Below are positions 747 through 55,787 of a DNA stretch of 64,000 bases, piece by piece (the stretch's first letter is position 1; every line of letters starts with the position of its first letter). The notes below the pieces were generated by a model, which was given only the letters and a program-made list of their open reading frames with translations, made no database searches and had not been told where the DNA came from. The position numbers and the translations under genes are program-made. Where the stretch lies: assembly GCF_003570885.1 (NCBI RefSeq), contig NZ_QXJC01000003.1, positions 558,001 through 622,000 of the forward strand. Direction: 5' to 3'. Source of the DNA: Simplicispira hankyongi (GTDB lineage: Bacteria > Pseudomonadota > Gammaproteobacteria > Burkholderiales > Burkholderiaceae_C).

Positions 747-788
747 AGCGCTTATTCAGCATGCGCTTCCAGCTATTTAAAGCATAGC
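747..788 (+). repeat. 42-nt double-hairpin repeat, copy A
   Basis: First stem AGCGCTT/ATGCGCT with a 7-nt loop, 4-nt linker, second stem GCTAT/ATAGC with a 7-nt loop. It lies between clsB and folE, both on the minus strand. The AGAGG carried on the minus strand is about 50 nt from the folE start, so it does not act as that gene's ribosome site. Confidence 0.9.
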
Positions 789-804
789 ATCAGTGCGAAA
801 TGGC

Positions 805-2022
805 TCAGTAGGTCTTGCCCGTGAGCCACAAGGCGCTGCGCACCAGTGCAAGGGCCAAACGGTCAAGCACACGCGCCCGCCACGGCCGCGCGGCGTAGGC
901 AGCGCTGTCGATCTGCCGACCTGCGTGCTCCATGGCGTCCACCAGGCGCTTGCGCAAATTCTGGGCGAACTCGGCATCGGCCACCGCCACGTTCGCCTCG
1001 CGGGCCAGCAGCAGGCTCAGGGGGTCGAGGTTGGACGAGCCCACCGTCGCCCAGGGGTGCGATCCTTCGGCATCGATCACGGCCACCTTGGCGTGCAAAA
1101 AGCTCGGCGCGTATTCGTGAATTTCAACACCTGCCTTCAATAGCAGGCCGTACACCGGCCGGGCTGCGTGGTACTGCAAAAAATACTCGTAGCGCCCCTG
1201 CAGCAGCAGGCGCACGCGCACCCCGCGCCGGGCCGCGTGCACCAGCGCGCGGCGAAGCCGCCGGCCGGGCACGAAATAGGCGTTGGCAATGATGATTTCC
1301 TCCCGCGCCTGGGCAATCGCGCGCAGGTAGGCGCGCTCGATCACCGCGCGGTGCAGGACGTTGTCGCGCAGCAGCAGGGCAGCGCGCACGCCGCTGCGCT
1401 CCTGCGGCGCAGCCGCCTTGGTTCGCGCCACCTGCCGCGCCGCGAAGAAATCGCGCCGCGCCTCGCCCAGGTGGCGCAAGCGCGCGGCGCTGACCGCCTG
1501 CATACGCCACCAGGCGATCTGCATCGCGGCATTCGCCTGCGCCGTGATGGGGCCGCGCACCTCAACCGCGAAGTCGAGCCGGGGCGCTTCGAGCCGCCCG
1601 TAATTCGGGTCATAAAAGTCGTCGAGCAGGTTGATGCCGCCGCAAAACAGCACCGCACCATCCACCACACACAGCTTGCGGTGCAGCCGGCGCCAGCGCT
1701 GCGGCAAGAGCAGCCCCAGCGGCCCAAGCGGCGCGAACGCCTGGTACTGCACGCCGGCGGCGCGCAGGCGCTCCAGCCAACCAGCATCCAGGCCGCCTGT
1801 GCCAAAGCCATCGACCAGCAACTGCACCTGCACGCCACGCCGTGCCGCGCGCTCCAGTGCCGCGCCAATGCTGGCCCCGCTGTCGGTGAAGTCGCAGATA
1901 TAGGTTTCAAACCGCACGCTTTGCGCCGCGCCATCCATGGCTCGCACCAGCGCGGGAAACAGCTCCTGAGCCCCCTGCAGGAGCGCCACGCTGTGGCCGG
2001 GAATCAGCTCGACATTGCGCAT
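805..2022 (-). CDS. clsB: Cardiolipin synthase B-type phospholipase D family protein
   Basis: Membrane-associated phosphatidyltransferase making cardiolipin or related phospholipids. Two HKD (HxKxxxxD) motifs are visible: H114-K116-D121 in HRKLCVVD and H310-K312-D317 in HAKVAVID, each followed by the usual small-residue stretch (GSSN after the second). The length of 405 residues fits ClsB (YbhO) rather than the longer ClsA, and there are no N-terminal transmembrane segments, also as in ClsB. Its start directly abuts the stop of the EEP-family gene (ATG at 2022, stop at 2023), the same ybhP-ybhO pairing seen in E. coli, so the two are surely co-transcribed. Substrate preference is inferred from the family. 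Confidence 0.88.
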   Translation of the reverse strand: MRNVELIPGHSVALLQGAQELFPALVRAMDGAAQSVRFETYICDFTDSGASIGAALERAARRGVQVQLLVDGFGTGGLDAGWLERLRAAGVQYQAFAPLGPLGLLLPQRWRRLHRKLCVVDGAVLFCGGINLLDDFYDPNYGRLEAPRLDFAVEVRGPITAQANAAMQIAWWRMQAVSAARLRHLGEARRDFFAARQVARTKAAAPQERSGVRAALLLRDNVLHRAVIERAYLRAIAQAREEIIIANAYFVPGRRLRRALVHAARRGVRVRLLLQGRYEYFLQYHAARPVYGLLLKAGVEIHEYAPSFLHAKVAVIDAEGSHPWATVGSSNLDPLSLLLAREANVAVADAEFAQNLRKRLVDAMEHAGRQIDSAAYAARPWRARVLDRLALALVRSALWLTGKTY

Positions 2023-2766
2023 CTACAGTCGAAACTCCGCCACCAGCGGCAAATGGTCCGACATGCGCCACCAGATGCGGCCTTTAGGCACGTACGTCCC
2101 CATGGGCATCAGGCCGCGCACATAAATGTGGTCGAGCTGCACGATGGGCAGACGCGCCGGGTACGTGAACGCGCTTTGCTCAAACTCCACCATGCCAATC
2201 TGCGCCAGCGCCTTCTTGACCTGCAAGCCCCAGTCGTTGAAATCGCCCGCCACCACCAGCGGCGCGCCCGCCGGAACCTCGCGCTCGATGAAGGCGCGCA
2301 GGCGCTGCACCTGGCGCACCCGGCTGCCGGGGATCAGCCCCAGATGCACGACGATGGAATGCACCGATCTGCCCGCGAGATCGATCTCCACGTGCAGCAA
2401 GCCGCGCTGCTCGAAGCGGTGGTCCGAGATGTCTTCGTGCTGGTGGCCCAACACCGGCCAGCGCGTCAGCAACGCATTGCCGTGCTCGCCATGCTTGGTG
2501 TAGGCGTTGGTGCGGTAGACGGCCTCGTAGCCCTCGGGCGCCAGGTACTGCGCCTGGGGGAGCGCTGGCCAGCGCTCGAAATAGGCCGCTTCGCTCCGGT
2601 TCAGGCTGCGCACCTCCTGCAGGCAGACGATATCGGCGTCGAGCTGCTCTACCGCATGGCCCAGGTTGTGGATCTCCAGCCGGCGCGCCGGGCCGAAACC
2701 CTGCACGCCTTTGTGGATGTTGTAGGTGGCAACGCGCAGCAGCGATGGGGATTCCATACCGCCCAT
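2023..2766 (-). CDS. ybhP: Endonuclease/exonuclease/phosphatase family protein (YbhP-like)
   Basis: A 247-residue protein with the metal-dependent EEP fold signature: TYNIHKG near residue 16, LQEV near 48, GDFNDW in the middle and a C-terminal SDHLPLVAEF. These supply the Asn, Glu, Asp and His residues of the family active site. No signal peptide is seen, so it is probably cytoplasmic. Coupled with no gap to clsB. The conserved pairing with ClsB suggests a role near phospholipid metabolism, but the substrate is unknown. The start is divergent from the response-regulator gene, leaving about 107 nt for both promoters. Confidence 0.85.
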   Translation of the reverse strand: MGGMESPSLLRVATYNIHKGVQGFGPARRLEIHNLGHAVEQLDADIVCLQEVRSLNRSEAAYFERWPALPQAQYLAPEGYEAVYRTNAYTKHGEHGNALLTRWPVLGHQHEDISDHRFEQRGLLHVEIDLAGRSVHSIVVHLGLIPGSRVRQVQRLRAFIEREVPAGAPLVVAGDFNDWGLQVKKALAQIGMVEFEQSAFTYPARLPIVQLDHIYVRGLMPMGTYVPKGRIWWRMSDHLPLVAEFRL

Positions 2767-2873
2767 TGTGGCGCAGATGCCTCTCCTGGGGGTCTGCCCT
2801 ATCGCCGGTTTGCGTGCGCCTGCTTACACTGCCTGGCGCCGCAACTCCCTGCACTGCCCAACCAAGCTTTCAC

Positions 2874-4598: not shown

Positions 4599-5052
4599 CT
4601 CCCGCCGCGCGCTGCGGCAAATCCAGGCAGGCCTGCGCGTTGCTTTGCGAAAAACAGGCGGCTGCCGCCTCGCGCCAAGGCAGCCAGCGTGCCGCCAGAT
4701 GTTCCCTCGGGCTAAGAATGGCCGGTGTCCCCACCGGTACGCACAGGCCAAACACGTGCTCCCGGTTGCGCAGCACGCCGGGTGCGTAGCGGTGGCGCCA
4801 GCGCGGCCAGATGGCGTAGTCGTTTTCGTACTGCCAATCGGTCAGCACATGGCCAGGAAGCCGTGCACCAATGCCGGTTTCTTCGCGTACCTCGCGGATG
4901 GCCGCGGCTTCGAACGATTCGGTGGCGAAATCCTTGGAGCCTGTCACCGATTGCCAGTGGTCCGGCCAGTCTGCGCGCGCGAGCAGCAACACCTCCAGCG
5001 CCGGGGTATGGATCACCACCAGCACGGACTCAGGGATCTTGAATTCAGGCAT
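4567..5052 (-). CDS. nudB: Dihydroneopterin triphosphate diphosphatase (Nudix)
   Basis: NudB removes pyrophosphate from dihydroneopterin triphosphate, the FolE product, in folate synthesis. The 161-residue protein has a Nudix box (G-x5-E-x7-REVREETGIG) at about residues 38-60 and the NudB-typical WYENDY-like region (TDWQYENDYAIWPRWRHRY). It sits downstream of aspS, the usual betaproteobacterial order, but a strong terminator separates them, so it probably has its own promoter. Its 3' end overlaps the convergent response-regulator gene by 32 nt. Other Nudix functions cannot be excluded from sequence alone, but length and context favour NudB. Confidence 0.86.
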   Translation of the reverse strand: MPEFKIPESVLVVIHTPALEVLLLARADWPDHWQSVTGSKDFATESFEAAAIREVREETGIGARLPGHVLTDWQYENDYAIWPRWRHRYAPGVLRNREHVFGLCVPVGTPAILSPREHLAARWLPWREAAAACFSQSNAQACLDLPQRAAGVSPAAQVRRW

Positions 5053-12801: not shown

Positions 12802-13533
12802 TCAACACTTGATACCAACATGCAGGGCGACGACGCCGCCCGTCATGTTGTGGCAATCGACATGGCCGAACCCGGCCTGCTTCATCAGCGCCTTGAGCGC
12901 CTGCTGGTCCGGGTGCATGCGGATGGATTCGGCCAGATAGCGGTAACTGTCGGCATCGCCCGCCACCAACTGGCCGATGCGCGGCAGCACATTGAACGAA
13001 TACCAGTCGTACACCTTGGCGAGCGGCTTGGCCACCTTGGAAAATTCGAGCACCAGCAGCTTGCCGCCAGGCTTAAGCACGCGGCACATCTCGGCCAGCG
13101 CAATGTCCTTGTGCGTCATGTTGCGCAGGCCAAAGGCCACGCTGACCAGATCGAAATGCGCGTCGGGGAACGGCAGTTGCTCCGCATCGCAGACCACCGT
13201 GGGCAGCACCACGCCGGCGTCGATCAGCCGGTCGCGCCCGGTGCGCAGCATGGCTTCGTTGATGTCGGTGTGCACCACCTGGCCACGCTCGCCCACCTTC
13301 TTGGAAAAAGCCAGCGCCAGATCGCCCGTGCCGCCGGCAATATCCAGCACGCGCTGGCCCTCTTGCAGGTTGGCGACCAACACCGTGTAGGCCTTCCACG
13401 CGCGGTGCAGGCCACCCGACATCAAGTCGTTCATCACGTCGTATTTGGACGCCACCGAATCGAACACACCGCGCACGCGGCGCGCCTTGTCGCGCTCGTC
13501 CACCGACTCGAAACCAAAATGTGTAGTGCTCAT
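12802..13533 (-). CDS. ubiE: Demethylmenaquinone/2-octaprenylbenzoquinol C-methyltransferase UbiE
   Basis: A 243-residue SAM-dependent methyltransferase that carries out the C-methylation step in ubiquinone (and menaquinone) synthesis. The glycine-rich SAM motif is [14 protein letters not shown] near residue 65; the UbiE signatures [17 protein letters not shown] near 30-46 and [16 protein letters not shown] near 135 are clear. It sits 14 nt before the tim44-like gene. Upstream (higher coordinates) a repeat copy separates it from the DUF971 gene. Confidence 0.96.
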
Positions 13534-13609
13534 GGTGGGAATGCTAGCCGCTTGCAGGGCAACCCTCTAAATGCGTGGGATATCGGATATTTAAGCCAAA
13601 CCACGCTCT

Positions 13610-13651
13610 AGCGCTTATGGGTATTGCGCTAGCAGCTTCTAAAACGATAGC
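13610..13651 (+). repeat. 42-nt double-hairpin repeat, copy B
   Basis: AGCGCTT/TTGCGCT stem with loop atgggta, 4-nt linker, GCTTC/ATAGC second stem with 7-nt loop. It lies in the intergenic gap between the DUF971 gene and ubiE, both minus-strand. Confidence 0.88.
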
Positions 13652-14685: not shown

Positions 14686-15141
14686 TCAATCTCCTTGCGA
14701 CGCCTCACCCTTTGCCAAATACCCCCGTATCTGCGCGTTGACGGCGTCGAGGTGCGTGCGAACCGCCGCCTCCTTGTCGCGGTCTCGGGCGCGCTGCGGT
14801 TCGCCCCAGAAGGCGTTCGGGAAGTGCGTATCCCATTCAAATCGTGCGATCACGTGCCAGTGCAAGTGCGGCACCTGGTTTCCCAGGGCGGCAAGGTTGA
14901 CCTTGGTTGGCGCCAAGTGTTCGATGAGCGCACGTTCGACGCAGACCACCGCGTCCATGCACTCGGTGCGTTCTTCGGCCGAGAGGTCGGAAAACTCGGC
15001 GACATGCGCATTCCAGATCACGCGGTAGTAGCCGGGGAAGCCCTCTTCTTCGACGTGCACCACCCGCAGCTTGGCGCTGTGCCACACCAGGGCGCCGCCG
15101 TCCTGCGCGCACAGCGCACAGCCAAAAGACGATTGGCTCAT
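14686..15141 (-). CDS. HIT family protein
   Basis: A 151-residue histidine-triad nucleotide hydrolase/transferase. The triad motif is HLHWHV at about residue 95, with CALC near the N terminus (residues 8-11). The start at 15141 (MSQSSFGC) is supported because it overlaps the stop of the upstream FAD/Fe-S gene by 4 nt (ATGA), which implies coupled translation. The substrate is unknown; relatives act on adenosine phosphoramidates or dinucleoside polyphosphates. Co-transcribed with the oxidoreductase. Confidence 0.9.
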
Positions 15142-18100
15142 ACCAACACCCTTTCGATACCGCCGCTGTTGGCGCACTGCACGTATTCGGGCAACCAGTT
15201 CTCACCCAGAATCTGTTTGGCCATTTCAATGACGATGTAGTCGGCCTCCAGCAGGCCGTTCTGCAAGTCGTCCTCGTAGCGCTTGAGGCCTTGCAGGCAG
15301 CTTGGGCAACTGGTCAGAATCTTCACATTGGCCTGCGGCGCCACGCTGCCGTTGGCGCGCAGCAGTGCCTCGCCCTTCTTGATTTCCTCTTCCTTGCGAA
15401 AGCGCACCTGGGTCGAGATGTCGGGGCGGGTGACGCCCAGCGTTCCCGATTCGCCGCAGCAGCGATCGCTCTTGATGACCTTGTCGCCCACCAGCGCCTT
15501 GACGGTTTTCATCGAGTCGCCCAGCTTCATGGGGTTGTGGCAGGGCTCGTGGTACAGGTAGCCGCCCTGCCCGGCCGGCAAGGTAATGCCCTTTTCCAGC
15601 AGGTATTCGTGGATGTCGATGATGCGGCTGCCAGGGAAGATCTTGTCGAATTCGTAGCCCTGCAGCTGGTCGTAGCAGGTGCCGCAGCTGACCACCACCG
15701 TCTGGATGTCCAGGTAGTTCAACGTGGTCGCCACTCGGTGGAACAGCACCCGGTTGTCGGTGATCATCTTCTCGGCCTTGTCGAACTGGCCGCTGCCGCG
15801 CTGCGGGTAGCCGCAGCACAAATAGCCCGGTGGCAGCACGGTCTGCACGCCGGCGTGCCACAGCATGGCCTGCGTGGCCAGGCCCACCTGGCTGAACAGC
15901 CGCTCGGAGCCGCAGCCGGGGAAGTAAAACACCGCCTCGCTGCTGGCCGTGGTGGCCTGCGGGTTGCGGATGATGGGGACGTAGTCCTTGTCTTCGATGT
16001 CGAGCAGGGCGCGCGCCGTCTTGGTGGGCAGGCCACCGGGCAGCTTCTTGTTGATGAAGTGGATCACCTGCTCCTTGATCGGCGCCGGGCCCACGGTGGC
16101 GGGCGGGTGCGCTGTCTGCTTGCGGCTGACCTTGCGCAGCAGATCGACGGCGATGCGCTGCGCCTTGAAGCCCACGCCCACCATGCCGGCACGCAGCAGC
16201 TTGATTTTCTCGGGGCTGGTGGCATTGAGCATGGTCATGGCCAGTGCGTTGCCGGGGCGCCAGCTCTTCTTGCCCATCTTGCGCAACAGGTTGCGCATGT
16301 TCATCGTCACATCGCCAAAGTCGATCTTCACCGGGCAGGGCGAGAGGCATTTGTGGCAGACGGTGCAGTGGTCGGCCACGTCCTCGAACTCCTGCCAGTG
16401 GCGGATGCTGATGCCGCGGCGGGTTTGCTCTTCGTACAGGAACGCCTCGACCAGCAGCGAGGTGGCGAGGATTTTGTTGCGCGGGGAGTACAGCAGGTTG
16501 GCGCGCGGCACGTGCGTCGCGCAGACCGGTTTGCACTTGCCGCAGCGCAGGCAGTCCTTGACCGAATCGGCAATGGCGCCGATGTCGCTCTGCTGCATGA
16601 TGAGCGATTCGTGCCCCATCAGGCCGAAGCTCGGGGTGTAGGCGTGGGTCAGGTCGGCCGAGCGCAGATTTGATGCAAAATCGGCCTCCAGCGCTTGACC
16701 AGTAAGCGCTGATAGCTCCTGGTTACGTAGCAATTTTCCCTTGTTGAAGCGGCCCTGCGGGTCCACGCGCCGCTTGTAGTCGGCAAAGGGCGCGAGCTCT
16801 TCGTCGCTCAGGTATTCGAGCTTGGTGATGCCAATGCCATGCTCGCCCGAAATCACCCCGCCCAGGCTGCGTGCCAGCCGCATGATGCGGCCCACGGCGG
16901 CGTGCGCGGTCTGCAGCATCCGATAGTCGTCGCTGTTGACGGGGATGTTGGTGTGCACGTTGCCGTCGCCAGCGTGCATGTGCAGGGCCACCCACACGCG
17001 CCCCTTGAGCACGCGCTGGTGAATGGCAATGCACTCGGCCAGGATGGGGGCCAAGGCGTCGCCGGCAAAAATGCCGCGCAGAGGTGCGAGGATCTGCGTC
17101 TTCCAGCTCGCCCGCAGGCTGTGGTCCTGCAACTGCGGGAACAGCGCCTCGACCCCCTGCAGCCATTGGCTCCACAGCGTGCGCGCTTGCTGCACCACGT
17201 CCAGCGCCTCGTTCACGCGCTCCTGCAGCGTCTCAGGCGAGAGCGCGTCGCCCGCGTCCTGGCCGGCCGCGCCCAGCGGCAGTTGGCCGCGGGCAAAGAA
17301 ATCCTCCAGCGCATCGCACAGCGCCAGTTTGTTCTGCAGCGAGAGCTCGATGTTGATGCGCTCGATGCCGTCGGTGTACTCGGCCATGCGCGGCAGCGGG
17401 ATCACCACGTCTTCGTTGATCTTGAAGGCGTTGGTGTGCCGGCTGATGGCCGCGGTGCGCTTGCGGTCGGCCCAGAACTTCTTGCGCGCCTCGGCGCTGA
17501 TGGCGATGAAGCCTTCGCCGCTGCGCGAATTGGCAATGCGCACCACCTCGCTGGTGACGCGGGCCACGGCATCCGCATCGTCGCCGGCAATGTCGCCAAA
17601 CAGCGCCATTTTCGGCAGGCCAGCGCGCTTGGATTTGGTGGCGTAGCCCACCGCCTTGAGGTAGCGGTCGTCCAGGTGCTCCAGGCCGGCCAGCACCACG
17701 CCCGAGCGTTTTTGCTCGGCGAACATGAAATCCTTGATCTCGACGATGCTGGGCACGGCGTCCTTGGCGTTCCCAAAGAACTCCAGGCACACGGTGCGCG
17801 TGTGCACCGGCATGCGGTGCACGATCCAGCGGCAGCTGGTAATCAGGCCGTCGCAGCCTTCCTTCTGGATGCCGGGCAGGCCGGCGAGGAACTTGTCGGT
17901 CACGTCCTTGCCCAGGCCCTCGGTGCGAAAGCGCTTGCCGGGGATGTCCAGGCGCTCGCTGCGCACAGGTGTCTTGCCGTCGGCCTCGAAGTAGTTCAGC
18001 TCGAAGCTGGCCACTTCGGCGTCGTGAATCTTGCCCAGGTTGTGGCCCACGCGCGTCACTTCCAGCCACTGCGCGTCGGGTGTCACCATGCGCCAGCTCG

Positions 18101-19049
18101 CCAGGTTGTCCAGCGCCGTGCCCCAGAGCACCGCCTTCTTGCCGCCGGCGTTCATGGCGACGTTGCCGCCCACGCAGGAGGCTTCGGCGCTGGTCGGGTC
18201 CACGGCAAACACGAATCCCGCCGCCTCGGCGGCGTCCGCCACGCGCTGCGTGACGACACCGGCCTCCGTCCAGACGGTGGCGACCTCGCCCGCCACGCCC
18301 GGCAGCGCGCGCATTTCCACCGCCGTCATGGCTTCGAGTTTTTCGGTGTTGATGACGGCGCTTTTGTCGGTCAGCGGAATCGCGCCGCCGGTGTAGCCGG
18401 TGCCGCCGCCGCGCGCAATGATGGTCAGGCCCAGTTCGATGCAGCCTTTGACCAGGCCGGCCATTTCGGCCTCGGTGTCGGGGGTGAGCACGACAAAGGG
18501 GTACTCGACGCGCCAGTCGGTCGCATCCGTCACATGGCTGACGCGCGAGAGCGCATCGAACTTGATATTGTCCTTGGCCGTCAGCCGCGAGAGCGTGCGC
18601 CGGGTGGCGCGGCGCAGCTGGGCTGCGGCGTCAAACGAGGCGTCAAACCGGCGCACCGCGGCGGTGGCCGCAGCGAGCAGCTCGCCCACCAGCGCGTCGC
18701 GCTCGGGCGCGGCATCGGGCTGGCGGCGCTTGTGCACTTCAGAGAGGCGGTGGTCGAGCGCCTGCACCAGTTGCTTGCGCCGCTCGCGGCTGCCCAGCAG
18801 GTCGTCTTGCAGGTAGGGGTTGCGCTGCACCACCCACATGTCGCCCAGCACCTCGTAGAGCATGCGCGCCGAGCGGCCAGTGTCGCGCTCGCGCCGCAGT
18901 TGCAGCAGCGTGTCCCAGGCGCGGCTGCCCAGCAGGCGGATGACGATCTCGCGGTCGGAGAAGCTGGTGTAGTTGTAGGGGATCTCGCGCAGGCGCACGG
19001 GCTGAGGGGGTTGCGCCATCAAGTTGGCCAGCGCGGTGGGAGCATTCAT
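15138..19049 (-). CDS. FAD-linked oxidase fused to Fe-S/CCG domains (DUF3683 type, lactate/glycolate-dehydrogenase-like)
   Basis: A 1303-residue flavin and iron-sulfur oxidoreductase. In order: an N-terminal DUF3683-type region (about 10-150), an FAD-binding PCMH domain with [14 protein letters not shown] (about 200-370), an FAD-linked oxidase C-terminal domain with [12 protein letters not shown] near 690, two 4Fe-4S motifs ([11 protein letters not shown] near 830, CTVCHKC near 895), and two CCG heterodisulfide-reductase-like domains (CCGYP near 1080, CCGESG near 1197). The layout resembles D-lactate or glycolate dehydrogenases merged with a GlpC-like subunit; the electron donor is not certain. 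The start at 19049 (MNAPTAL) fits the family. Residues about 772-786 are encoded by repeat copy C, in a linker before the Fe-S domain. Confidence 0.86.
16690..16731 (+). repeat. 42-nt double-hairpin repeat, copy C, inside a coding region
   Basis: AGCGCTT/AAGCGCT stem with loop gaccagt, linker gata, GCTCC/GTAGC stem with 7-nt loop. It is read antisense as part of the FAD/Fe-S oxidoreductase, giving residues around [14 protein letters not shown] in the linker after the flavin domain. The only copy inside a gene; the frame stays open. Confidence 0.85.
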
Positions 19050-22966: not shown

Positions 22967-23817
22967 TGGTTGAACGCAATCCCTTTCTGAGCGTGCTCTC
23001 GCACGCCGTCATGCTGCTGGGCGTGGCCATCGTCGCCTTCCCGCTGTACCTGGCATTTGTGGCGTCCAGCCACACCGCCCAGGAAATCGTCCAGGCGCCC
23101 ATGCCACTGCTGCCCGGCAGCCACCTGTGGGACACCTACAAAACCGCCCTGCTCGGCGGCGGCGACGGCGCGGGCTCGACGGCGCCGGTGGCCCGCATGA
23201 TGTGGGTGAGCTTTGTCAGCGCCATGGTCATCACCGTGGGCAAGATCTCCATCTCGCTGCTCTCGGCGTTTGCCGTGGTGTATTTCCGCTTTCCGTTCAA
23301 GCAGTTGTGCTTCTGGGCCATTTTCGTCACGCTGATGCTGCCGGTGGAAGTGCGCATCGGCCCGACCTACCAGGTGGTCTCCGACCTGGGCATGCTCAAC
23401 AGCTATGCGGGCCTGACGGTGCCGCTGATTGCCTCGGCCACGGCCACCTTCCTGTTCCGGCAATTCTTCCTGACCGTGCCGGACGAACTGGTGGAAGCGG
23501 CACGCATGGACGGCGCGGGCCCGATGCGCTTCTTCAAGGACGTGCTGGTGCCGCTCTCGGCCACCTCGATTGCGGCGCTGTTCGTCATCCAGTTCATCTA
23601 CGGCTGGAACCAGTACCTGTGGCCGCTGCTGGCCACCACCAGCGAGGACATGTACCCGGTAGTGATCGGCATCAAACGCATGATCGCCGGAGGCGACGCA
23701 GCGAACGACTGGAACATCGTCATGGCCACCGCCATTCTCGCCATGCTGCCACCGGCCTTTGTGGTGGTGCTGATGCAGAAGTGGTTCGTCAAGGGCTTGG
23801 TGGACACCGAAAAATAA
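22966..23817 (+). CDS. ugpE: sn-Glycerol-3-phosphate ABC transporter permease UgpE
   Basis: A 283-residue membrane subunit, six helices, EAA motif EAARMDGAGPMRFFKDVLVP near residue 178. The start at 22966 (MVERNPF) overlaps the ugpA stop by 1 nt; the long upstream open frame is only antisense or out-of-frame to ugpA. The C terminus ends WFVKGLVDTEK, typical of the family. Followed within 9 nt by the repeat that forms the gap to ugpC. Confidence 0.93.
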   Translation: MVERNPFLSVLSHAVMLLGVAIVAFPLYLAFVASSHTAQEIVQAPMPLLPGSHLWDTYKTALLGGGDGAGSTAPVARMMWVSFVSAMVITVGKISISLLSAFAVVYFRFPFKQLCFWAIFVTLMLPVEVRIGPTYQVVSDLGMLNSYAGLTVPLIASATATFLFRQFFLTVPDELVEAARMDGAGPMRFFKDVLVPLSATSIAALFVIQFIYGWNQYLWPLLATTSEDMYPVVIGIKRMIAGGDAANDWNIVMATAILAMLPPAFVVVLMQKWFVKGLVDTEK

Positions 23818-23834
23818 TGGTCAAATTGGCCTCT

Positions 23835-23876
23835 AGCGCTTACCCATAAAGCGCAAGCAGCTTCCAAATAAATAGC
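23835..23876 (+). repeat. 42-nt double-hairpin repeat, copy D
   Basis: AGCGCTT/AAGCGCA stem with loop acccata, 4-nt linker, GCTTC/ATAGC stem. It ends 3 nt before the ugpC ATG at 23880 and fills the whole ugpE-ugpC gap, so it is the 5' translation region of ugpC. Confidence 0.9.
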
Positions 23877-26141: not shown

Positions 26142-27440
26142 ATGTCTGTCTGGGCCTTGGGCATCAACCACAACACCGCGCCAATCGATTTGCGTGGCCG
26201 TTTTGCGTTTGCGCTTGACCAGATCGCACCCACGCTGCAGGGTTTGCGCTCGGCCCTGGGGGCCTCCAATCCGCATCGCGGCATCGAATCGGCGATCATT
26301 TCCACCTGCAACCGCACCGAGGTGTATTGCGCCGGTGACCAGATTGCACTGGACCACACGCTGGGCTGGCTGGCGCAGAGCGGCGGCGTCAGCGCCGACC
26401 TGCTGCGCTCGCACTCCTACGTGCTGGAAGACGGCCCGGCCGCCCGCCACGCGTTCCGAGTGGCCAGCGGGCTCGATTCCATGGTGCTGGGCGAGCCGCA
26501 AATTCTGGGGCAGATGAAAGATGCGGTGCGCGCTGCCGAGAGCGCGGGCGCCCTGGGCTCCACGCTCAACCAGTTGTTCCAGCGCAGCTTTGCCGTCGCC
26601 AAGGAAGTGCGCACCTCCACCGAAATCGGCGCGCACAGCATCAGCATGGCGGCCGCCGCCGTGCGCCTGGCCAGCCAGATTTTTGAAGACCTGGGCAAAA
26701 CCAAGGTGCTTTTTGTCGGTGCCGGCGAAATGGTCGAGCTCACCGCCACGCATTTCGCTGCGCGCAACCCGCAATCCATCGCCATCGCCAACCGCACGCT
26801 GGAGCGCGGTGAGCGCCTGGCCGCGCGCTTTGGCGCCGAGGTGCTGCGCCTGGCCGACCTGCCCGAGCGCCTGCACGAATTCGACATCGTCGTCAGCTGC
26901 ACCGCCAGCACGCTGCCCATCGTGGGCCTGGGCGCGGTCGAGCGCGCACTCAAAAAGCGCCGCCACCGCCCCATGTTCATGGTCGACTTGGCGGTGCCGC
27001 GCGACATCGAACCCGAAGTCAAAGCCCTGCGCGACGTCTACCTCTACACCGTGGACGACCTGGCCAGCGTGGTGCAAACGGCGCAGGCCAGCCGCCAAGC
27101 CGCCGTCGAGCAGGCCGAAGTGATCATCGACGCCGGCGTGCAAAGCTTCATGCACTGGATGGACCAGCGCGACCCACAGCATGGCGTGGTGCCGCTGATC
27201 CGGCAGATTCAGGAACAGACCGACCAGTGGCGCGCCATCGAACTGGCCCGCGCGCGCCGCCGACTGGCCCGGGGCGAGGACGTAGACGCCGTGCTGGAGG
27301 CGCTCGCGCGCGGGCTCTCGCGCAAGATGCTGCATGGCACCATGGCCGAGCTGCGCGCCAGCGACGCCGAGGCGCGCGATCAAACAGCGCGCACCGCTTC
27401 GCGCCTGTTTCTGCGCTCTCAAAGCAAAACCTCCTTGTAG
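26142..27440 (+). CDS. hemA: Glutamyl-tRNA reductase
   Basis: First committed step of heme synthesis by the C5 route: reduces Glu-tRNA to glutamate-1-semialdehyde with NADPH. The 432-residue protein has the catalytic Cys in STCNRTEVY (about residue 53), the family segment [15 protein letters not shown] near 115, and the nucleotide loop LFVGAGEM near 190. The start at 26142 ([14 protein letters not shown]) agrees with the family N terminus; no ribosome site precedes it. The stop codon TAG is formed by the first bases of repeat copy E. prfA and prmC follow, the common hemA-prfA-prmC order. Confidence 0.95.
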
Positions 27441-27480
27441 CGCTCATTGGGCCTACGCTTATAGCTATCTTTTGGGTAGC
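27439..27480 (+). repeat. 42-nt double-hairpin repeat, copy E (degenerate)
   Basis: AGCGCTC/CTACGCT with loop attgggc, 4-nt linker tata, GCTAT/GTAGC with 7-nt loop. The most diverged copy, but the spacing is intact. The hemA stop codon (TAG at 27438-27440) uses its first two bases. It lies 17 nt before the prfA start. Confidence 0.78.
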
Positions 27481-28607: not shown

Positions 28608-28655
28608 GCCTGCTGCCTGCGTGCGGCACCAGAAATTTGAATGAAATAGGGCTCT

Positions 28656-28697
28656 AGCGCTTTACCCATAAGCGCTAACAGCTATGCAAAATATAGC
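28656..28697 (+). repeat. 42-nt double-hairpin repeat, copy F, carrying the prmC start
   Basis: AGCGCTT/AAGCGCT with loop tacccat (the reverse complement of the loop in copies B and I), linker aaca, GCTAT/ATAGC with a 7-nt loop. The prmC ATG (28684-28686) is made from the last two bases of the GCTAT arm plus the first loop base. It shares an extra 15-nt left flank (TGAAATAGGGCTCT) with copy H. Confidence 0.9.
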
Positions 28698-34525: not shown

Positions 34526-35674
34526 TTAGCGCCCTGTGAGCACCAGATTGTCGCGGTGCAGCATCTCGGGTTCGGCTGCATAGCCCAGCAAGGCTTCGAA
34601 GGCGCTGGAGGGTTTGCGGCACAGGCGCCGCGCCTCGTTGCTGGCGTAGTTGGCCAGGCCGCGCGCAATCTCGACGCCTTCTGGGTCGTGCACCGCGATG
34701 ATGTCACCGCGTTCGAACTCCCCTTCGACATGCGTCATACCGATGGGCAGCAGGCTCTTGCCCTCGCCACACAGTTTGGCCGCCGCCCCGGCATCCACCC
34801 GCACGGCGCCGCGCAGTTGCAGGTGGTCCGCCATCCACTGCTTGCGTGCCTGCTTCTTGGCGGTCTGGGACACCAGCAAGGTGCCGATGGGTTCACCTGC
34901 CGCGAGCCGCAGCAGCACATCGGGCTCGCGACCCCAGGCAATCACGGTGGAAGCCCCCGAGCCGGCGGCGCGCTTGGCGGCCAGTATCTTGGTGAGCATG
35001 CCGCCTCGCCCGATACTGGAGCCGGCGCCTCCCGCCATGGCTTCGAGCGCCACATCGCCGGCGCGACCCTGGTGCACAAACGCCGCCGCGGGGTCCCGGC
35101 GCGGGTCGGCGGTGTACAGCCCCTTTTGGTCCGTGAGAATCACCAGCGCATCGGCCTCCACCAGATTCGCCACCAGGGCGCCCAGCGTGTCGTTGTCGCC
35201 AAACTTGATCTCGTCGTTGACGACGGTGTCGTTTTCGTTGATGACCGGTACCACGCCGAGCTGCAGCAGGGTGACCAGTGTTGAGCGCGCATTGAGATAG
35301 CGTTCGCGGTTAGCCAAGTCGGCGTGGGTCAGCAGCACCTGTGCGCTGCCAATGCCGTTTTCACGCAACTTGGTTTCGTACATTTGCGCAAGCCCCATCT
35401 GCCCTACGGCGGCAGCGGCCTGAAGTTCATGGACCTGGCGCGGGCGGGCACTCCAGCCCAGGCGCTTCATCCCCTCTGCGACAGCGCCGCTGGAGACCAT
35501 GATGACTTCGCGCTTGCCCCCCACCTGACCACTGACCAGCGCCGCGAGTTGCCGCGCCCACTCACCAATGGCCTGTGCGTCCAGCCCACGGCCCTCGTTG
35601 GTGACCAGGCTGGAGCCCACTTTGACGACGATGCGGTGCGCGGTCCGCAGCACCTCCGAGTTTTCAAGGGTCAT
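34526..35674 (-). CDS. proB: Glutamate 5-kinase
   Basis: First step of proline synthesis: phosphorylates glutamate. The 382-residue protein has the amino-acid kinase fold ([14 protein letters not shown] near residue 15, [15 protein letters not shown] near 60, VINENDTVV near 148) and a C-terminal PUA domain (about 285-375). The ATG at 35674 is preceded by AGAGG, 5 nt away, which belongs to repeat copy G. It follows obgE in the same direction, separated only by that repeat. Confidence 0.95.
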
Positions 35675-35684
35675 TTCTGCCTCT

Positions 35685-35726
35685 AGCGCCCTATATATAA
35701 GCGCTTAAAGCTATATTTATAATAGC
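35685..35726 (+). repeat. 42-nt double-hairpin repeat, copy G, supplying the proB ribosome site
   Basis: AGCGCCC/AAGCGCT with loop tatatat, linker taaa, GCTAT/ATAGC with 7-nt loop. On the minus strand its outer edge reads GCTAGAGGC, then 5 nt after AGAGG comes the proB ATG. It fills the 63-nt gap between obgE and proB. Confidence 0.9.
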
Positions 35727-35737: not shown

Positions 35738-36841
<1,104 letters not shown>

Positions 36842-43527: not shown

Positions 43528-44283
43528 GTGATCCTGTACGAATACCCCTTTAACGAGCGCATCCGCACGTATCTGCGGCTTGAGCATCTGTTTCGCCGCC
43601 TGGGCGTACTGATTGCCCGCGAGCATCCGCTGGACCACCATTTCGCCCTGACGACGATCTTCGAAGTCATGGATGTCGCGGCCCGGGCCGACTTGAAGTC
43701 CGACGTCATGAAGGACCTTGAAAAGCAAAAGCACCAGCTCGACGGCTACCGGGGCAACCCTTCCATCTCTCTGGATGCACTCGACAGCGTGGTGCGCCAG
43801 CTCGACGGCTGCTTTTCCGCGCTCAATGCGCAATCCGGCAAGGCGGGCCAGTCGCTCACCGAAAACGAGTGGCTCATGGCCATCCGAAGCCGCGTCGGCA
43901 TTCCCGGCGGCACCTGCGGTTTTGACCTGCCCGCGTACGCCGCCTGGCAGCACCGCCCTGCCGCAGAGCGCCAGCAGGCGCTGGCCGAGTGGGCGCACAC
44001 GCTGGCCCCGCTGGCCGAGGCGGTGTTTTTGCTGCTCAAGCTGCTGCGCGACTCCGGCGTGCCGCAAAAGATGGTCGCCGAACGCGGGCAGTTGCAGCAA
44101 ACGCTGCCGCAAGGGCGCACTTTTCAGCTCCTGCGGCTGCGCATTGACCCAGCGCTGGAAGTGGTGCCCGAAATCAGCGGCAATCGGCTGATGGTGTCGG
44201 TGCGTTTGATGCACGAACAACCCGGCGAGCACGCCACGGCCAGTACACAGGACGTCAGCTTTGAGCTGACACTGTGCGCCTGA
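43528..44283 (+). CDS. zapD: Cell division protein ZapD
   Basis: ZapD cross-links FtsZ filaments at the division site. The 251-residue protein starts ILYEYPFNERIRTYLRLEHLF, then GNPSISLDALDSVVRQL, as in the family (DUF1342), with no transmembrane segment. The start is GTG at 43528. Between coaE and yacG, the standard neighbourhood. Confidence 0.94.
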   Translation: MILYEYPFNERIRTYLRLEHLFRRLGVLIAREHPLDHHFALTTIFEVMDVAARADLKSDVMKDLEKQKHQLDGYRGNPSISLDALDSVVRQLDGCFSALNAQSGKAGQSLTENEWLMAIRSRVGIPGGTCGFDLPAYAAWQHRPAAERQQALAEWAHTLAPLAEAVFLLLKLLRDSGVPQKMVAERGQLQQTLPQGRTFQLLRLRIDPALEVVPEISGNRLMVSVRLMHEQPGEHATASTQDVSFELTLCA

Positions 44284-44301: not shown

Positions 44302-44517
44302 ATGGCGCAGCCTCCTGACCTTAAAGCCCGCCAGGTCGTCTGCCCGGCCTGCGGCGGCCCAAGCCTCTACAGCAGCGCCAACCCTTGGCGGCCGTTCTGC
44401 TGTGAGCGCTGCAAGCAGCAGGATCTGGGGGCTTGGGCGAACGAGGAATTTCGCATGCCGACGGAGGCGCCACCCGACGATGCGCCGTACGGCGATCCCC
44501 GCACAAAAAATGAATGA
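44302..44517 (+). CDS. yacG: DNA gyrase inhibitor YacG
   Basis: A 71-residue zinc protein known to bind and inhibit DNA gyrase. Zinc motif: CPACGG near residue 14 and CCERCK near 33, then DLGAWANEEFRMP, the family hallmark. Its stop (TGA at 44515-44517) lies in the left flank of repeat copy H. Closely follows zapD (18 nt). Confidence 0.93.
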   Translation: MAQPPDLKARQVVCPACGGPSLYSSANPWRPFCCERCKQQDLGAWANEEFRMPTEAPPDDAPYGDPRTKNE

Positions 44518-44528
44518 AATAGGGCTCT

Positions 44529-44570
44529 AGCGCAATACCATCAAGCGCTGACAGCTATTTATTTCGTAGT
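44529..44570 (+). repeat. 42-nt double-hairpin repeat, copy H, between convergent genes
   Basis: AGCGCAA/AAGCGCT with loop taccatc, linker gaca, GCTAT/GTAGT with 7-nt loop. It lies between yacG (+) and the MutT-like gene (-). The minus-strand stop (CTA at 44555-44557 on the plus strand) is in its second stem and its loop encodes the last codons (NK) of that protein. Confidence 0.88.
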
Positions 44571-45013
44571 ATTTCGGGGTCAAACGCCAAGCCGCGCTCC
44601 TGCGCCAGCCATTCAAGCACCGGCAAGGCGCCCGGCAGCACGGGCCGCACCGTGACAGGCCAGTGCTGCCAGCACATCTGCTGGGCCTCGCGCATCTCGA
44701 ACGCGCCGCTCCACTCGGTCACCCGGCACCAATGCAGGCGCACCAAGGCGTGCGGGTAATCGTGCTCCGTCACCTTCCAGACCTGTGCCGGGCCAATGGT
44801 GATGCCGATTTCTTCCTGCAGCTCGCGCCGCAGCGCCTGCTCCACGCTCTCGCCCGCTTCGAGCTTGCCGCCAGGAAACTCCCAATAGCCGGCGTAGACC
44901 TTGCCCTCCGGGCGGCTGGTGAGCAGCAGCGCACCGTCGCCCCGGATCAAAATGCCAACGGCAACCTCCGTGTACGGACGCATCTCAGGTGGCTGCGGCC
45001 GCTGTTCACGCAT
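44555..45013 (-). CDS. MutT-like Nudix hydrolase
   Basis: A 152-residue Nudix protein with the box GGKLEAGESVEQALRRELQE then EIGI near residue 49-71. The overall form, EVAVGILIRGDGALLLTSRP then YAGYWEFPGGK, is that of 8-oxo-dGTP diphosphatase MutT, which clears oxidised dGTP from the nucleotide pool. Its last codons and stop come from repeat copy H. The start could be 45013 (MREQRPQ) or the later MRPYTEV. Placed convergent to yacG, as in related genomes. The exact substrate is inferred. Confidence 0.83.
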   Translation of the reverse strand: MREQRPQPPEMRPYTEVAVGILIRGDGALLLTSRPEGKVYAGYWEFPGGKLEAGESVEQALRRELQEEIGITIGPAQVWKVTEHDYPHALVRLHWCRVTEWSGAFEMREAQQMCWQHWPVTVRPVLPGALPVLEWLAQERGLAFDPEILRNK

Positions 45014-45050: not shown

Positions 45051-45140
45051 CAGTGGACGCCGCGCAAGGGCCGCCCCGCTGCGCTGGCGTCGTCTCCCCT
45101 CCCGCAGGAGAGGGGGGAAGGCGCGAAGCGCCTCAGGGGG
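45051..45140 (-). repeat. GC-rich 3'-end repeat, copy L
   Basis: Reads on the minus strand CCCCCTGAGGCGCTTCGCGC, then a CCCCCCTCTCC/GGAGGGG stem, then GGGGCGGCCCTTGCGCGGCG. The DUF815 stop codon (TGA, plus-strand 45133-45135) is inside its first ten bases. It lies between the DUF815 and the MutT-like genes. Confidence 0.85.
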
Positions 45141-46011
45141 GCGTTGCATGCTTTCCTGCATAGTCACGGGCAAATTGATACGCCACACGCCCGCTGCGCG
45201 AGCCGCGCTCCAGCGCCCAGACCAGTGCCTCGGGCCGAGCCGCTTCAATCGCCGTGGTCGCTACACCGAACGAGGCCAGCCACTGCGCGGCAATTGCCAG
45301 GTACTCGTCCTGGCTGAACGGGTAAAAGCTGACCCACAAGCCAAAGCGCTCGGAGAGCGAAATTTTCTCTTCCACGCCTTCACCCGGATGCACTTCGCCG
45401 TCGTCGGTGTGCGTGTAGGTGAGGTTCTCGCGCATGTACTCGGGCAACAGGTGGCGGCGGTTGCTGGTGGCGTAAATCAGCACATTGGGCGTGGCAGCGG
45501 CCACCGAGCCGTCGAGGATGGATTTGAGCGCCTTGTAGCCCGGCTCACCGTCCTCGAAGCTCAGGTCGTCGCAGAAGACGATGAACTTCTCGGGCCGATC
45601 CGCGACCACTTCGATGATGTCCGGCAGATCGGTCAGATCGGCCTTGTCCACCTCGATCAGGCGCAGGCCGGCGCTGGCATAGGTGTTCAGGCAAGCCTTG
45701 ATGAGCGAGCTCTTGCCGGTTCCACGCGCGCCCGTGAGCAGCACATTGTTGGCCGGCTGGCCATGGACGAACTGCTCGGTGTTGCGCCGGATCTTTTCCT
45801 TCTGGCCATCAATTTCCTTGAGGTGGCCGAGTTCCATGGCAGCCACGTGGCGCACCGGTTCCAGCCGGCCATGGCCGCCGGCGCGCCTGCGGTAGCGCCA
45901 GGCGACGGCCTGCGACCAATCGGGCGCGGACAAAGCTTGCGGCAGGGCCAACTCGATGCGCGCCATGAGTTGTTCTGCGCGGGCAATCAACTGGTCAAAA
46001 TTATGGGTCAT
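45133..46011 (-). CDS. DUF815 family AAA+ ATPase
   Basis: A 292-residue ATPase of unknown partner. Walker A: TGARGTGKSSLIKAC near residue 95; Walker B-like FIVFCDDLSFEDG near 143; sensor region VLIYATSNRRHLLPEYM near 178. The ATG at 46011 has AGAGG 5 nt upstream, from repeat copy I. The last codons and stop are from the GC-rich repeat copy L. Placed before argJ and mutT-like genes, common in Burkholderiales. The function is not established. Confidence 0.88.
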   Translation of the reverse strand: MTHNFDQLIARAEQLMARIELALPQALSAPDWSQAVAWRYRRRAGGHGRLEPVRHVAAMELGHLKEIDGQKEKIRRNTEQFVHGQPANNVLLTGARGTGKSSLIKACLNTYASAGLRLIEVDKADLTDLPDIIEVVADRPEKFIVFCDDLSFEDGEPGYKALKSILDGSVAAATPNVLIYATSNRRHLLPEYMRENLTYTHTDDGEVHPGEGVEEKISLSERFGLWVSFYPFSQDEYLAIAAQWLASFGVATTAIEAARPEALVWALERGSRSGRVAYQFARDYAGKHATPP

Positions 46012-46021
46012 TTTGGCCTCT

Positions 46022-46063
46022 AGCGCTTATGGGTAAAGCGCTTACAGCTATTGAATCAAGAGC
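46022..46063 (+). repeat. 42-nt double-hairpin repeat, copy I, supplying the DUF815 gene's ribosome site
   Basis: AGCGCTT/AAGCGCT with loop atgggta, linker taca, GCTAT/AGAGC (one mismatch) with a 7-nt loop. On the minus strand the outer edge AGAGG is followed after 5 nt by the DUF815 ATG at 46011. The argJ stop (TGA, 46056-46058) is in its second loop. Confidence 0.9.
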
Positions 46064-47285
46064 GATAGTCGGCGTTGATGCTGACGTAGTCGTGGCTCAA
46101 ATCGCAGGTCCAAACCTGGTCCTGCGCGTCGCCTCTGCCGAGCAGCACGCGCACCGTGATTTCGGCCTGCTGCATGACGCGCTGGCCGTCTTCCTCGCGG
46201 TAGTCGGGGTTGCGCCCCCCTTGGCGCGCAACCAACACATCGTCGAGGTACAGGTCGATGCGCGTCTGGTCGAGGTCTTCAATGCCCGCGTAGCCGACGG
46301 CCGCCAGAATGCGCCCCAGGTTCGGGTCGCTGGCGAAAAAGGCCGTCTTCACCAACGGTGAATGGGCGATGGCATACGCCACCTTGCGGCACTCTTCTGT
46401 GCTGGCACCGCCTTCGACGCGCACGGTGATGAACTTGGTCGCCCCTTCGCCGTCGCGCACGATAGCCTGCGCCAAAAGCCGCGCCACATCGCCCAGCGCA
46501 GCGGCCAGTGCCCGGCCTTCGGCGCTGTCAAGCGAGGTGATTTCAGCGTTCCCGGCGCGCTGCGTGGCGATCAGCGTGAACGAGTCGTTGGTGGAGGTGT
46601 CGCCATCAATGGTGATGCGGTTGAAGGATTGCTCGGCCAACTGGCGCACCAGCCGCGGCAGCAGCGCCGGCGCCACGCAGGCATCGGTGGCCAGAAAGCC
46701 CAGCATGGTCGCCATGTTGGGGCGAATCATGCCGGCGCCCTTGGAGATACCGGTGACGGACACCGTGGCGCCGCCAATCTGCACCTGGGCGCTGAAGGCC
46801 TTGGGCACGGTATCGGTCGTCATGATGGCCTGCGCCGCCGTGCCCCAGTGGTCGGCAGCGGCGTTGGCAATGGCATTGGGCAGGCCCGCCACGATACGCT
46901 CGACGGGCAGCGGCTCCATGATCACGCCGGTGGAATACGGCAGCACCTGCTGCGCGGCGATGCCCAGCGCCTGCGCCGCAGCCGTGCAGGTGCGGCGGGC
47001 ACGCGCCAGGCCATCGGCGCCGGTGCCCGCGTTGGCGTTGCCGGTGTTGATCACCAGCGCGCGGATGGCGCTGCCGCTCGCCAGATGCTCGCGCGCCACC
47101 TGCACGGGAGCCGCGCAGAAGCGGTTCTGCGTGAACACGCTGGCCACGGCGGCACCTTCATCAAGCAGAAAGACGGTGACGTCTTTGCGCCCCGGTTTTT
47201 TGATACCCGCTTCAGCGGTGCCGATACGAATCCCTGCAATGGGGCGAAGGTCAGATGCAAGGGGAGCAGAGAGATTCACAGGCAT
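46056..47285 (-). CDS. argJ: Bifunctional ornithine acetyltransferase/N-acetylglutamate synthase
   Basis: ArgJ recycles the acetyl group in arginine synthesis and makes N-acetylglutamate. The 409-residue precursor is cleaved in itself at an ATM|L site; here [13 protein letters not shown] near residue 195 has the essential Thr. The start at 47285 ([13 protein letters not shown]) fits the family. The DUF815 gene follows, with copy I between. secA is upstream on the same strand. Confidence 0.95.
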
Positions 47286-47471: not shown

Positions 47472-50231
<2,760 letters not shown>

Positions 50232-53432: not shown

Positions 53433-53453
53433 TTACAAACATAAAATGGATGA

Positions 53454-54530: not shown

Positions 54531-54565
54531 GACCGCTGCGGCCTCCAGCCACGCACCAAGCCTGC

Positions 54566-55735
54566 TCAGACGAGCAACCTGCGGCCCGTGATCCGCTCGT
54601 GTTCCGCCGCGGCAAAGCGGTCCGTCATACCGGCGATGAAATCCGCCACCACCCGTTCACATTGCCCTGGCGCTGCGGCAGCGCGGGCGAGGTAACCAGG
54701 CTTCATCGCCTTCGGGTCGGAAAGATAGGCCTGGAACAACTCACGCACCACGACTTGGGCATTGTCCGTGGTCGCCACAACCTGCGGATGCCGGTACAGG
54801 TTGTCGAAGAGAAAGCGCTTGAGCGCCTGCGACTCGCTGCGCATCTCCGGGCTGAAGCAAATCAAGGGCTCGGCATGGCGGGCGCCGTCCACATCGGCCG
54901 GCGTGGCGCGCGCCAGTGCCGCCTGGGTCGCCGCAATGACGTCGTAGACCTGCGCGCTGAGCATGCGGCGAATGGTTTCGTAGAGCAGGCGGCGCTGGTG
55001 ATCGGGCATATCGAGCGAAGGGTACTCACTCAGCGCCTGCGCCCGGTAGCGCGCAAAGAGCGGCACCTGCTGCAGTTGTTCTTGCGTGATGAGCCCCGAA
55101 CGCACGCCATCGTCGATGTCGTGGGCGTTGTAGGCGATCTCGTCGGCCAGATTGGCCAACTGGGCCTCCAAGCTGGGTTGGCGATGTTCCAGGAACCGGG
55201 CGCCGACACCGCCAGGCTCTTCGGCCTCCAGGGCCTGGGCATTCGTGCGCGAGCAATGTTTCAAAATGCCTTCGCGCGTCTCGAATGTGAGGTTGAGGCC
55301 AGCAAACTGCGGGTAGCGCAGCTCCAGCTTGTCCACCACACGCAGGCTTTGCAGGTTGTGCTCAAAACCGCCATGCGAGCGCATGCAATGGTTCAAGGCA
55401 TCCTGCCCAGCGTGGCCAAAAGGCGTGTGGCCCAGGTCATGCGCCAGGGCGATGGCCTCCACCAGGTCTTCGTTCAGGCGCAGCGAGCGCGCCACCGAGC
55501 GGGCCAGTTGCGCCACTTCGAGCGAGTGCGTCAGCCGGGTGCGAAACAGGTCTCCCTCATGGTTGAGGAACACCTGCGTCTTGTAGACCAGGCGCCGAAA
55601 GGCCGAGGAATGCACGATGCGGTCGCGGTCGCGCTGGTAGTCGCTGCGCGTGGGCGCGGGCGCTTCGGGATGCCTGCGTCCGCGGGTGCCCGCCGCATGG
55701 CAGGCATAGGCGGCCAAACCAAAAATATCAGTCAA
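54566..55735 (-). CDS. dgt: dGTPase-like HD-domain triphosphohydrolase
   Basis: A 389-residue deoxyguanosinetriphosphate triphosphohydrolase-like protein (dGTPase family). HD domain: FRTRLTHSLEVAQLARSVAR near residue 64, ALAHDLGHTPFGHAGQDAL near 96, then DEIAYNAHDIDDG near 198. The start is read as TTG at 55735 (LTDIFGLAAYA); AGAGG from repeat copy J lies 5 nt before. No ATG exists upstream of the conserved HPEAPAPTRSDYQRDRDRIVH. The last gene of aroK-aroB-dgt. Confidence 0.88.
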   Translation of the reverse strand: MTDIFGLAAYACHAAGTRGRRHPEAPAPTRSDYQRDRDRIVHSSAFRRLVYKTQVFLNHEGDLFRTRLTHSLEVAQLARSVARSLRLNEDLVEAIALAHDLGHTPFGHAGQDALNHCMRSHGGFEHNLQSLRVVDKLELRYPQFAGLNLTFETREGILKHCSRTNAQALEAEEPGGVGARFLEHRQPSLEAQLANLADEIAYNAHDIDDGVRSGLITQEQLQQVPLFARYRAQALSEYPSLDMPDHQRRLLYETIRRMLSAQVYDVIAATQAALARATPADVDGARHAEPLICFSPEMRSESQALKRFLFDNLYRHPQVVATTDNAQVVVRELFQAYLSDPKAMKPGYLARAAAAPGQCERVVADFIAGMTDRFAAAEHERITGRRLLV

Positions 55736-55745
55736 ATCTGCCTCT

Positions 55746-55787
55746 AGCGCTTATTCCATATGCGCATACAGCTATGTATTCAATAGC
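55746..55787 (+). repeat. 42-nt double-hairpin repeat, copy J, supplying the dgt ribosome site
   Basis: AGCGCTT/ATGCGCA with loop attccat, linker taca, GCTAT/ATAGC with loop gtattca. On the minus strand its edge AGAGG is 5 nt before the dgt TTG. It lies between aroB and dgt. Confidence 0.9.

Follow-up and report, generated by a model that had tools for sequence, protein, structure and literature searches.

A REP-like palindromic repeat dispersed through Comamonadaceae and possibly kept as a sequence-read element at gene ends

The stretch of Simplicispira hankyongi DNA analysed here (the window) is 64,000 nucleotides (nt) of contig NZ_QXJC01000003.1 from the source genome G000 (G000:C13:558001-622000), and it carries ten copies of a short element with two hairpins. 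At a probability of about 0.5, we read these copies as members of an old family resembling the repetitive extragenic palindromic (REP) sequences, kept as a sequence-read, orientation-independent gene-end element. The element is dispersed through many Comamonadaceae genomes, forms an insert at the prfA-prmC junction, is retained in place among congeners with conservation of some blocks of its core, and is nearly absent from one clade nested among bearers. Retention, we infer, would act through a predicted reader of the core letters.

Results

Ten copies of one element in the window

The first-pass annotation had picked out ten copies of a 42-nt double hairpin by eye. All ten were found in place, every one on the plus strand and with the 7-7-7-4-5-7-5 spacing of arms, loops and linker intact.

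723..788, plus strand: element copy, core 747-788, antisense between co-directional minus-strand genes (805-2022, minus, is clsB-like)
13586..13651, plus strand: element copy, core 13610-13651, between ubiE (12802-13503, minus) and a short minus-strand gene
16666..16731, plus strand: element copy, core 16690-16731, in frame and antisense inside an oxidoreductase gene (15138-19049 or 19142, minus), in a 22-residue linker
23811..23876, plus strand: element copy, core 23835-23876, filling the gap between ugpE (22966-23817, plus) and ugpC (23880-24887, plus), sense
27415..27480, plus strand: divergent copy, core 27439-27480, between hemA (26142-27440, plus) and prfA (27498-28607, plus)
28632..28697, plus strand: best-matching copy, core 28656-28697, between prfA (27498-28607, plus) and prmC (28684-29526, plus)
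35661..35726, plus strand: element copy, core 35685-35726, antisense between proB (34526-35674, minus) and gene 35738-36811 (minus), which we take to be obgE-like
44505..44570, plus strand: element copy, core 44529-44570, between convergent genes 43528-44283 (plus) and 44555-44983 (minus)
45998..46063, plus strand: element copy, core 46022-46063, antisense between argJ (46056-47285, minus) and gene 45133-46011 (minus)
55722..55787, plus strand: element copy, core 55746-55787, antisense between aroB (55815-56912, minus) and gene 54566-55735 (minus)

A scan of the window with a 25-position core gave the ten copies at 0-5 mismatches. The next plus-strand sites had 9, and the best minus-strand match (7 mismatches) fell on one of these same copies, read from its other strand. 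At ≤3 mismatches the core matched the window seven times versus 0 in 100 dinucleotide shuffles. Watson-Crick complementarity was perfect in the 7-nt stem of 3/10 copies and in the 5-nt stem of 4/10. The element is longer than the 42 nt first described: conservation runs from about -23 (AAATTTTNAGTNAAATTGGCCTCT) to about +42, or ~66 nt, with a consensus of approximately AAATTTTNAGTNAAATTGGCCTCT-AGCGCTT-N7-AAGCGCT-NNCA-GCTAT-N7-ATAGC, derived from 32 G000 copy records chosen by exact core pattern (two copies, lying in overlapping loci, were counted twice). The left (AAATTTT) and right (ATAGC) ends of the consensus are not inverted copies of one another.

Several copies adjoin or enter genes. The ugpE stop codon falls within the left end of the 23835 element, and the left part of the 27439 copy overlaps the hemA 3' end, which makes this an atypical site. 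The gene that holds the 16690 copy encodes a DUF3683/FAD-oxidase_C/Fer4/CCG oxidoreductase. The likely prmC ATG at 28684 lies within the right hairpin of the 28656 element (GCTATGC), so that PrmC may owe its start codon and first residues to the element.

The AGCGCTT arm occurs 35 times in the window, both strands counted, versus 15.5 expected in shuffles (sd 4.7). As 14 of the 35 lie inside the ten copies, the remainder is near expectation, and AGCGCTT alone was set aside as an uptake-sequence-like signal.

Distribution and copy number

The element is abundant outside the window. In G000 the pattern gave 330 matches at ≤2 mismatches (173 forward, 157 reverse), so the all-plus orientation within the window is local, and the pattern read backwards gave none. 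A covariance model found at least 150 copies in G000, all with E below 1e-11, and among the best 150 the matches spanned 73 bases in 148, 74 in one and 75 in one; spans of 68-82 are present in a genome of another genus (G093). At ≤2 mismatches the pattern occurred in 59 of 250 family genomes, at 1 to 521 matches per genome, and the hosts among the matches listed were Acidovorax, Paenacidovorax, Extensimonas, Giesbergeria, Simplicispira, Rhodoferax and Comamonas. Beyond the family, none of 291 genomes of the order had an exact pattern match (3/300 matched, all among nine family members), and the covariance model under stricter filters matched 3 of 150 genomes, all within the family and none outside. 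Copies were present on four plasmid records, two of the plasmid copies lying between co-directional annotated genes, and phage records had no copy at the limits used.

Rfam at its gathering threshold returned only a tRNA for the whole window, with no family for the element, and window positions 28600-28740 gave no match at E up to 1. The literature searched, in which subscription journals were thinly covered, yielded no description of the element, so that absence from print is weakly tested. The available parts of PMC3733652, PMC6006769, PMC3098052 and PMC3110155 do not describe it, and the Comamonadaceae terms looked for have zero occurrences in those of PMC12306157 and PMC13155455.

Inheritance in place

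Within the 16.5 kb compared, elements stood at all five window sites in G550, G557 and G516, and among these genomes and G000 there was no gain or loss at the five sites and no extra element. Most species at ~80% identity had elements at most of the sites recovered. Matches listed scored 11-85, and the reversed-sequence null peaked at 0.9. In 124 kb of G000 there were 20 elements scoring >15, and wherever the syntenic site was recovered an element was present (14/14 in G516 and 13/13 in G557), six of the 20 sites being without a syntenic match in the DNA compared and outside this count. Orthology at 80877 is less sure because the spacer there is 469-534 nt. Site 747 was recovered in two genomes, G516 and G433, and both have the element there. 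At 13610 a syntenic element was found in G550, G516, G557, G545, G549, G433, G543, G555 and others; the G547 copy is poorer. Single-site losses were seen in G549 (at 23835) and G555 (at 27439). At window 25.9-26.1 kb eight species have an element in an apparent coding region; the equally long segment in G000, G516, G557 and G550 is dissimilar in sequence.

The prfA-prmC junction extends the comparison to other genera. The computed gap is 0 nt in six element-free genomes (G264, G300, G049, G391, G234 and G490), a value extrapolated over 18-19 unaligned residues in three of the six. One element is present at the junction in 10 of 13 genomes with at least 50 copies, counting G000, and also in G301 (20 copies) and G313 (5 copies). 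Degraded copies were found there in the zero-copy genomes G345, G352 and G418, with scores of 28.9, 15.2 and 7.9 and a null maximum of -4.9 in 1000 reversed segments. The integrity of the junction copy tracks genomic copy number across 29 genomes (Spearman 0.72, p 1e-5), a correlation with a shared cause, as both drop on element decay. In G433 the gap (L257) also holds a G+C-rich repeat-like insertion beside the element, with a net length of 212 nt versus 71 in G000; this insertion may belong to another repeat of Comamonadaceae, perhaps a BRE-like one.

At the 16690 site, related linker residues were found in bearers of several genera. In 13 zero-copy outgroup genomes the linker varied: it is 5-14 residues long in nine, 23 residues of related sequence in G345 and G418, and unrelated in G506 (21 residues) and G305 (34 residues). 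This copy is likely an old insertion, the linker size not being a clean element size.

Near-absence from a nested clade

Among 26 genomes of the genus, 23 had 95-467 matches at ≤3 mismatches, G561 had four, and G541 and G554 had none. These last three form a clade beside G555 that is nested among bearers with support of 95-100. In a tree with other genera (one gene, a quick method and midpoint rooting), 27 of the 29 genomes with at least 50 copies fell in one group of 30, with the trio again nested inside. The two outside were G414 and G314, the latter on a long, unsure branch. Chiefly because of this nesting, the trio's state is best read, from these trees, as near-total copy loss. At the 16690 site the trio keeps a ~21-residue linker in which no element is recognisable, and the prfA-prmC gap is 19 nt in G541 and 11 nt in G561. 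Root-to-tip paths at the DNA level were 0.20-0.22 for the trio versus 0.17 for G000 and 0.18 for G555; at the protein level, measured from the 30-genome clade, they were 0.21 versus 0.27 and 0.19.

Conservation of letters and of shape

Between G000 and G516 at 14 sites, arm1 was identical at 93/98 positions versus 241/336 in the outer parts (Fisher p 2e-7). The right 3' arm (65/70, p 6e-5) and AGCTAT (74/84, p 0.002) likewise exceeded the outer parts, and loop1 (48/98), the NNN linker (16/42) and loop2 (55/98) all fell below them. Fourfold sites of the oxidoreductase gene were identical at 523/671. In 78 syntenic orthologues the best-kept letters were C3 G4 C5, G17 C18 G19, G26 C27 T28 (78/78) and A40 G41. 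Identity of the right 3' arm was 0.93 between orthologous copies versus 0.72 across sites, with 0.71 in the neighbouring tail. The corresponding values were 0.49 and 0.33 for loop1, and 0.38 and 0.36 for the linker. A fast loop would reflect conversion among copies, hairpin mutagenesis, or both; the orthologue-specific conservation of the right 3' arm speaks against conversion as the sole cause.

The proposal that the folded shape is recognised over the sequence was not supported and was set aside. What is conserved is letters (CGC-N11-GCG-N6-GCT-N11-AGC), and covariation is weak in the central stem and absent or marginal in the right. With 319 non-redundant copies (of 353 unique) and 2000 whole-arm swaps, the central stem had 1964 pairs versus 1935.3 under swaps, and no swap was as high; the right stem showed no excess (1323 versus 1324.8). 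The central excess was gone in 74 low-scoring copies, so it may in part stem from intact and decayed copies having been pooled. In an orthologue set of 98 sequences, 45 of 2000 column shuffles reached the 546 central pairs observed (537 expected), and 123 reached the 425 right-stem pairs (418 expected). RNA folding z-scores of the ten copies ranged from 0.09 to -3.18, only one being below -2. By eye, individual copies at 27439 and 16690 look compensated in other species.

Two related ideas were dropped. The left part of the element shows no clear covariation that would speak for a third stem, an AT-rich hairpin there. Loop inversion was also considered as a general process; of 307 orthologue pairs 9 look inverted, but all are from site 28656 and one event explains them.

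Gene context and orientation

The 382 copies classified with a rough gene caller, related ones being counted as independent, included 323 intergenic ones. Between co-directional genes lay 121 in sense and 100 in antisense orientation, with 72 more between convergent and 30 between divergent genes. The background was the 68 gaps of at least 40 nt in 124 kb of one genome (43 co-directional, 11 convergent, 14 divergent), and relative to it divergent gaps are under-used (30/323 versus 14/68, p 0.011). Sense and antisense do not differ significantly (binomial p 0.18), which is why we call the element orientation-neutral. Median distances to the core on the left were 32 nt for stops and 76 nt for starts; on the right they were 16 nt for (opposing) stops and 25 nt for starts. 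Elements are usually single. As judged by eye, some copies (L013 and L022) have a separate hairpin downstream that resembles a terminator and has a T run.

Relation to Y1 transposase genes

The first-pass annotation had likened the element to REP/REPIN sequences moved by REP-associated tyrosine transposases (RAYTs; Y1/HUH). The likeness stands in so far as this is a dispersed palindromic repeat with many copies genome-wide and in other Comamonadaceae, and the transposase link does not. The one Y1 transposase gene found in G000 has no element within 1.5 kb, and none was nearby at locus L031. Relatives of this gene occur in 237 of 250 family genomes versus elements in 59 of 250, and G541, G554 and G561 all carry Y1 genes. 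Of 30 RAYT loci (L067-L096), three had an element of at least 15 bits nearby (L071 in G414, L079 in G530 and L089 in G505). Only L089 had elements on both sides, with one scoring just 15.4 bits; G530 is without any pattern match. Among 29 Y1 loci of the genus (L308-L336) an element lay within ~1.5 kb in six and on both sides in none. At right-arm positions 38-41, GTAG occurs in 56/319 copies and ATAG in 104/319. Since Y1 genes are widespread, present in the element-free clade and seldom beside the element, the link fails, and on these presence and adjacency counts we reject RAYT as a diagnostic partner.

An autonomous element with a gene between copies also found no support: 133 inter-copy open reading frames (ORFs) were clustered, and the largest clusters viewed were the same locus across genomes, the ORFs not being run against a family library. 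In G544, G560 and G561 there are several partial Y1 matches (~50-60 of 121 positions), some at contig ends, which suggests decaying or cut IS200-like genes in the genus.

Discussion

We propose that a REP-like palindromic family of ~66 nt would have spread early in Comamonadaceae, inserting mostly in gaps between genes and occasionally in frame within a gene, and would have been inherited in place since. The core letters (CGC-N11-GCG-N6-GCT-N11-AGC) would be read at the DNA level or from either strand, and the copies thereby kept. The likely job, as for REP/BIME sites, would be that of a gene-end or intercistronic element, and the binder could be a chromosome-associated or 3'-end-processing protein. 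If the reader were lost, the copies would decay together. Long retention, protected key letters and near-vanishing in some lineages suggest that the element has a job. A bolder version, which we regard as rather doubtful, is that an undescribed, lineage-specific Comamonadaceae system that reads sequence at gene ends in either orientation holds hundreds of sites per genome, that loss of its reader erases the set, as in the G541/G554/G561 clade, and that the fast loop is the footprint of repeated strand processing at the hairpin.

Several observations weigh against retention by a reader. No reader protein turned up, and no systematic search for one was made. The central 3' arm (75/98) and GGCCTCT (77/98) were no better kept than the outer parts between G000 and G516, and therefore selection is seen for some blocks only. 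Loop1 and the NNN linker look to evolve faster than fourfold sites; conversion among copies could account for the fast loop and linker, and would also keep the arms uniform. The prfA-prmC copy is missing from the copy-rich G093 (155 copies) and G555 (95 copies) and lies farther downstream in G314, and separate insertions may have occurred at this junction. As the 16690 linker varies in length among element-free genomes, there is no clean empty/occupied pair. Finally, the context counts come from a rough gene caller and carry the non-independence and the one-genome background of 68 gaps given above.

The element could alternatively act at the RNA level as a 3'-untranslated-region hairpin on the transcribed strand, whether as terminator, RNase barrier or RNA-chaperone site. 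The closeness of copies to stops, the under-use of divergent gaps and the small central-stem excess would all fit. We nonetheless consider this unlikely, given near-equal sense and antisense placement, the lack of right-stem covariation in the 319 copies and the modest folding z-scores. Moreover, starts on the right are nearly as near as stops, as expected in short gaps, and some copies have a separate terminator-like hairpin downstream. Still less probable is a selfish palindrome moved by a RAYT transposase (REP/REPIN sensu stricto). It would explain dispersal in both orientations, the in-frame copy, the plasmid copies and the three loci with an element beside a Y1 gene, but it must contend with Y1 genes in far more genomes than elements, including the trio with 0, 0 and 4 copies, with no genus Y1 locus flanked on both sides and only six of 29 with any element, with a GTAG tag in few right arms, and with the static five sites of the 16.5 kb.

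We give about the same low weight to the proposal that the copies are functionless relics of one ancestral burst, still recognisable through conversion. Loop1 and linker do have little or no orthologue-specific identity, as conversion would predict, and decayed relics do persist in zero-copy genomes. However, the right 3' arm is conserved per site beside a tail that is not, arm1 is conserved far above the outer parts, and near-complete retention in bearers versus near-total loss in one clade has come about over similar path lengths. We prefer the sequence-read gene-end element.

Among described repeats, IS200/IS605-type miniature inverted-repeat transposable elements have no terminal inverted repeats and carry subterminal hairpins. 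The present element appears to share both traits, and no autonomous partner, target site or strain-level empty site came to light for it. Rickettsia palindromic elements (RPEs) are palindromic repeats that can sit in frame in protein genes and are inherited there, and our element is likewise palindromic and can lie in frame inside a coding gene. A CGTC end is noted for RPEs in the part of PMC3733652 available; compared by description and not by sequence, our element differs in its lineage, in being mostly intergenic, and in having CGTC or its complement GACG in 12/319 copies. According to PMC3733652, REP, BIME and REPIN sequences are short, palindromic, high-copy repeats, mostly extragenic, in both orientations and with some in genes. 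The element is like them in being short, palindromic, high-copy, mostly extragenic, in both orientations and in some cases inside genes, and unlike REP/REPIN in its greater length, its conserved AT-rich left end, its low GTAG frequency, its independence of RAYT presence and adjacency, and its orthologous retention across congeners and, at prfA-prmC, genera. The beta-proteobacterial repeat element (BRE) of Bordetella, as the available part of PMC3110155 describes it, is ~90 bp with 69% G+C, often tandem, with up to 29 copies counted, mostly intergenic with some copies in coding sequence, reported in Comamonadaceae, and of moderately conserved context between Bordetella species. Our element is also betaproteobacterial and mostly intergenic with some copies in coding sequence; it is set apart, by that description with the letters unaligned, by its ~66 nt, AT-richer outer parts, usually single occurrence, hundreds of copies and congener-conserved context.

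A repeat at hundreds of copies per genome in many Comamonadaceae has yielded no published description in the literature searched and no Rfam family. Its orthologous retention in many species, set beside near-total loss in one clade whose close relatives keep it, offers a comparative way into the long-standing question of whether REP-like repeats are useless leftovers, parasites or functional parts, and the gene content of the loss clade versus its sisters could name the reader.

Atypical arrangements

A few arrangements depart from the usual single copy. In G543 (L252; G543:C32:14300-32500) six elements of the same orientation, on the minus strand, lie within ~4 kb (near 2688, 3007, 3589, 4142, 4460 and 6420 of the locus), five of them spaced ~320-580 nt, which looks like a local expansion or tandem duplication. 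Symmetric copies with both halves of the right-end type occur at G479:C12:9611-9649, G479:C19:23499-23537 and G542:C33:129280-129318; these match on either strand with an offset of 9 nt, resembling a head-to-head fusion of two right halves.

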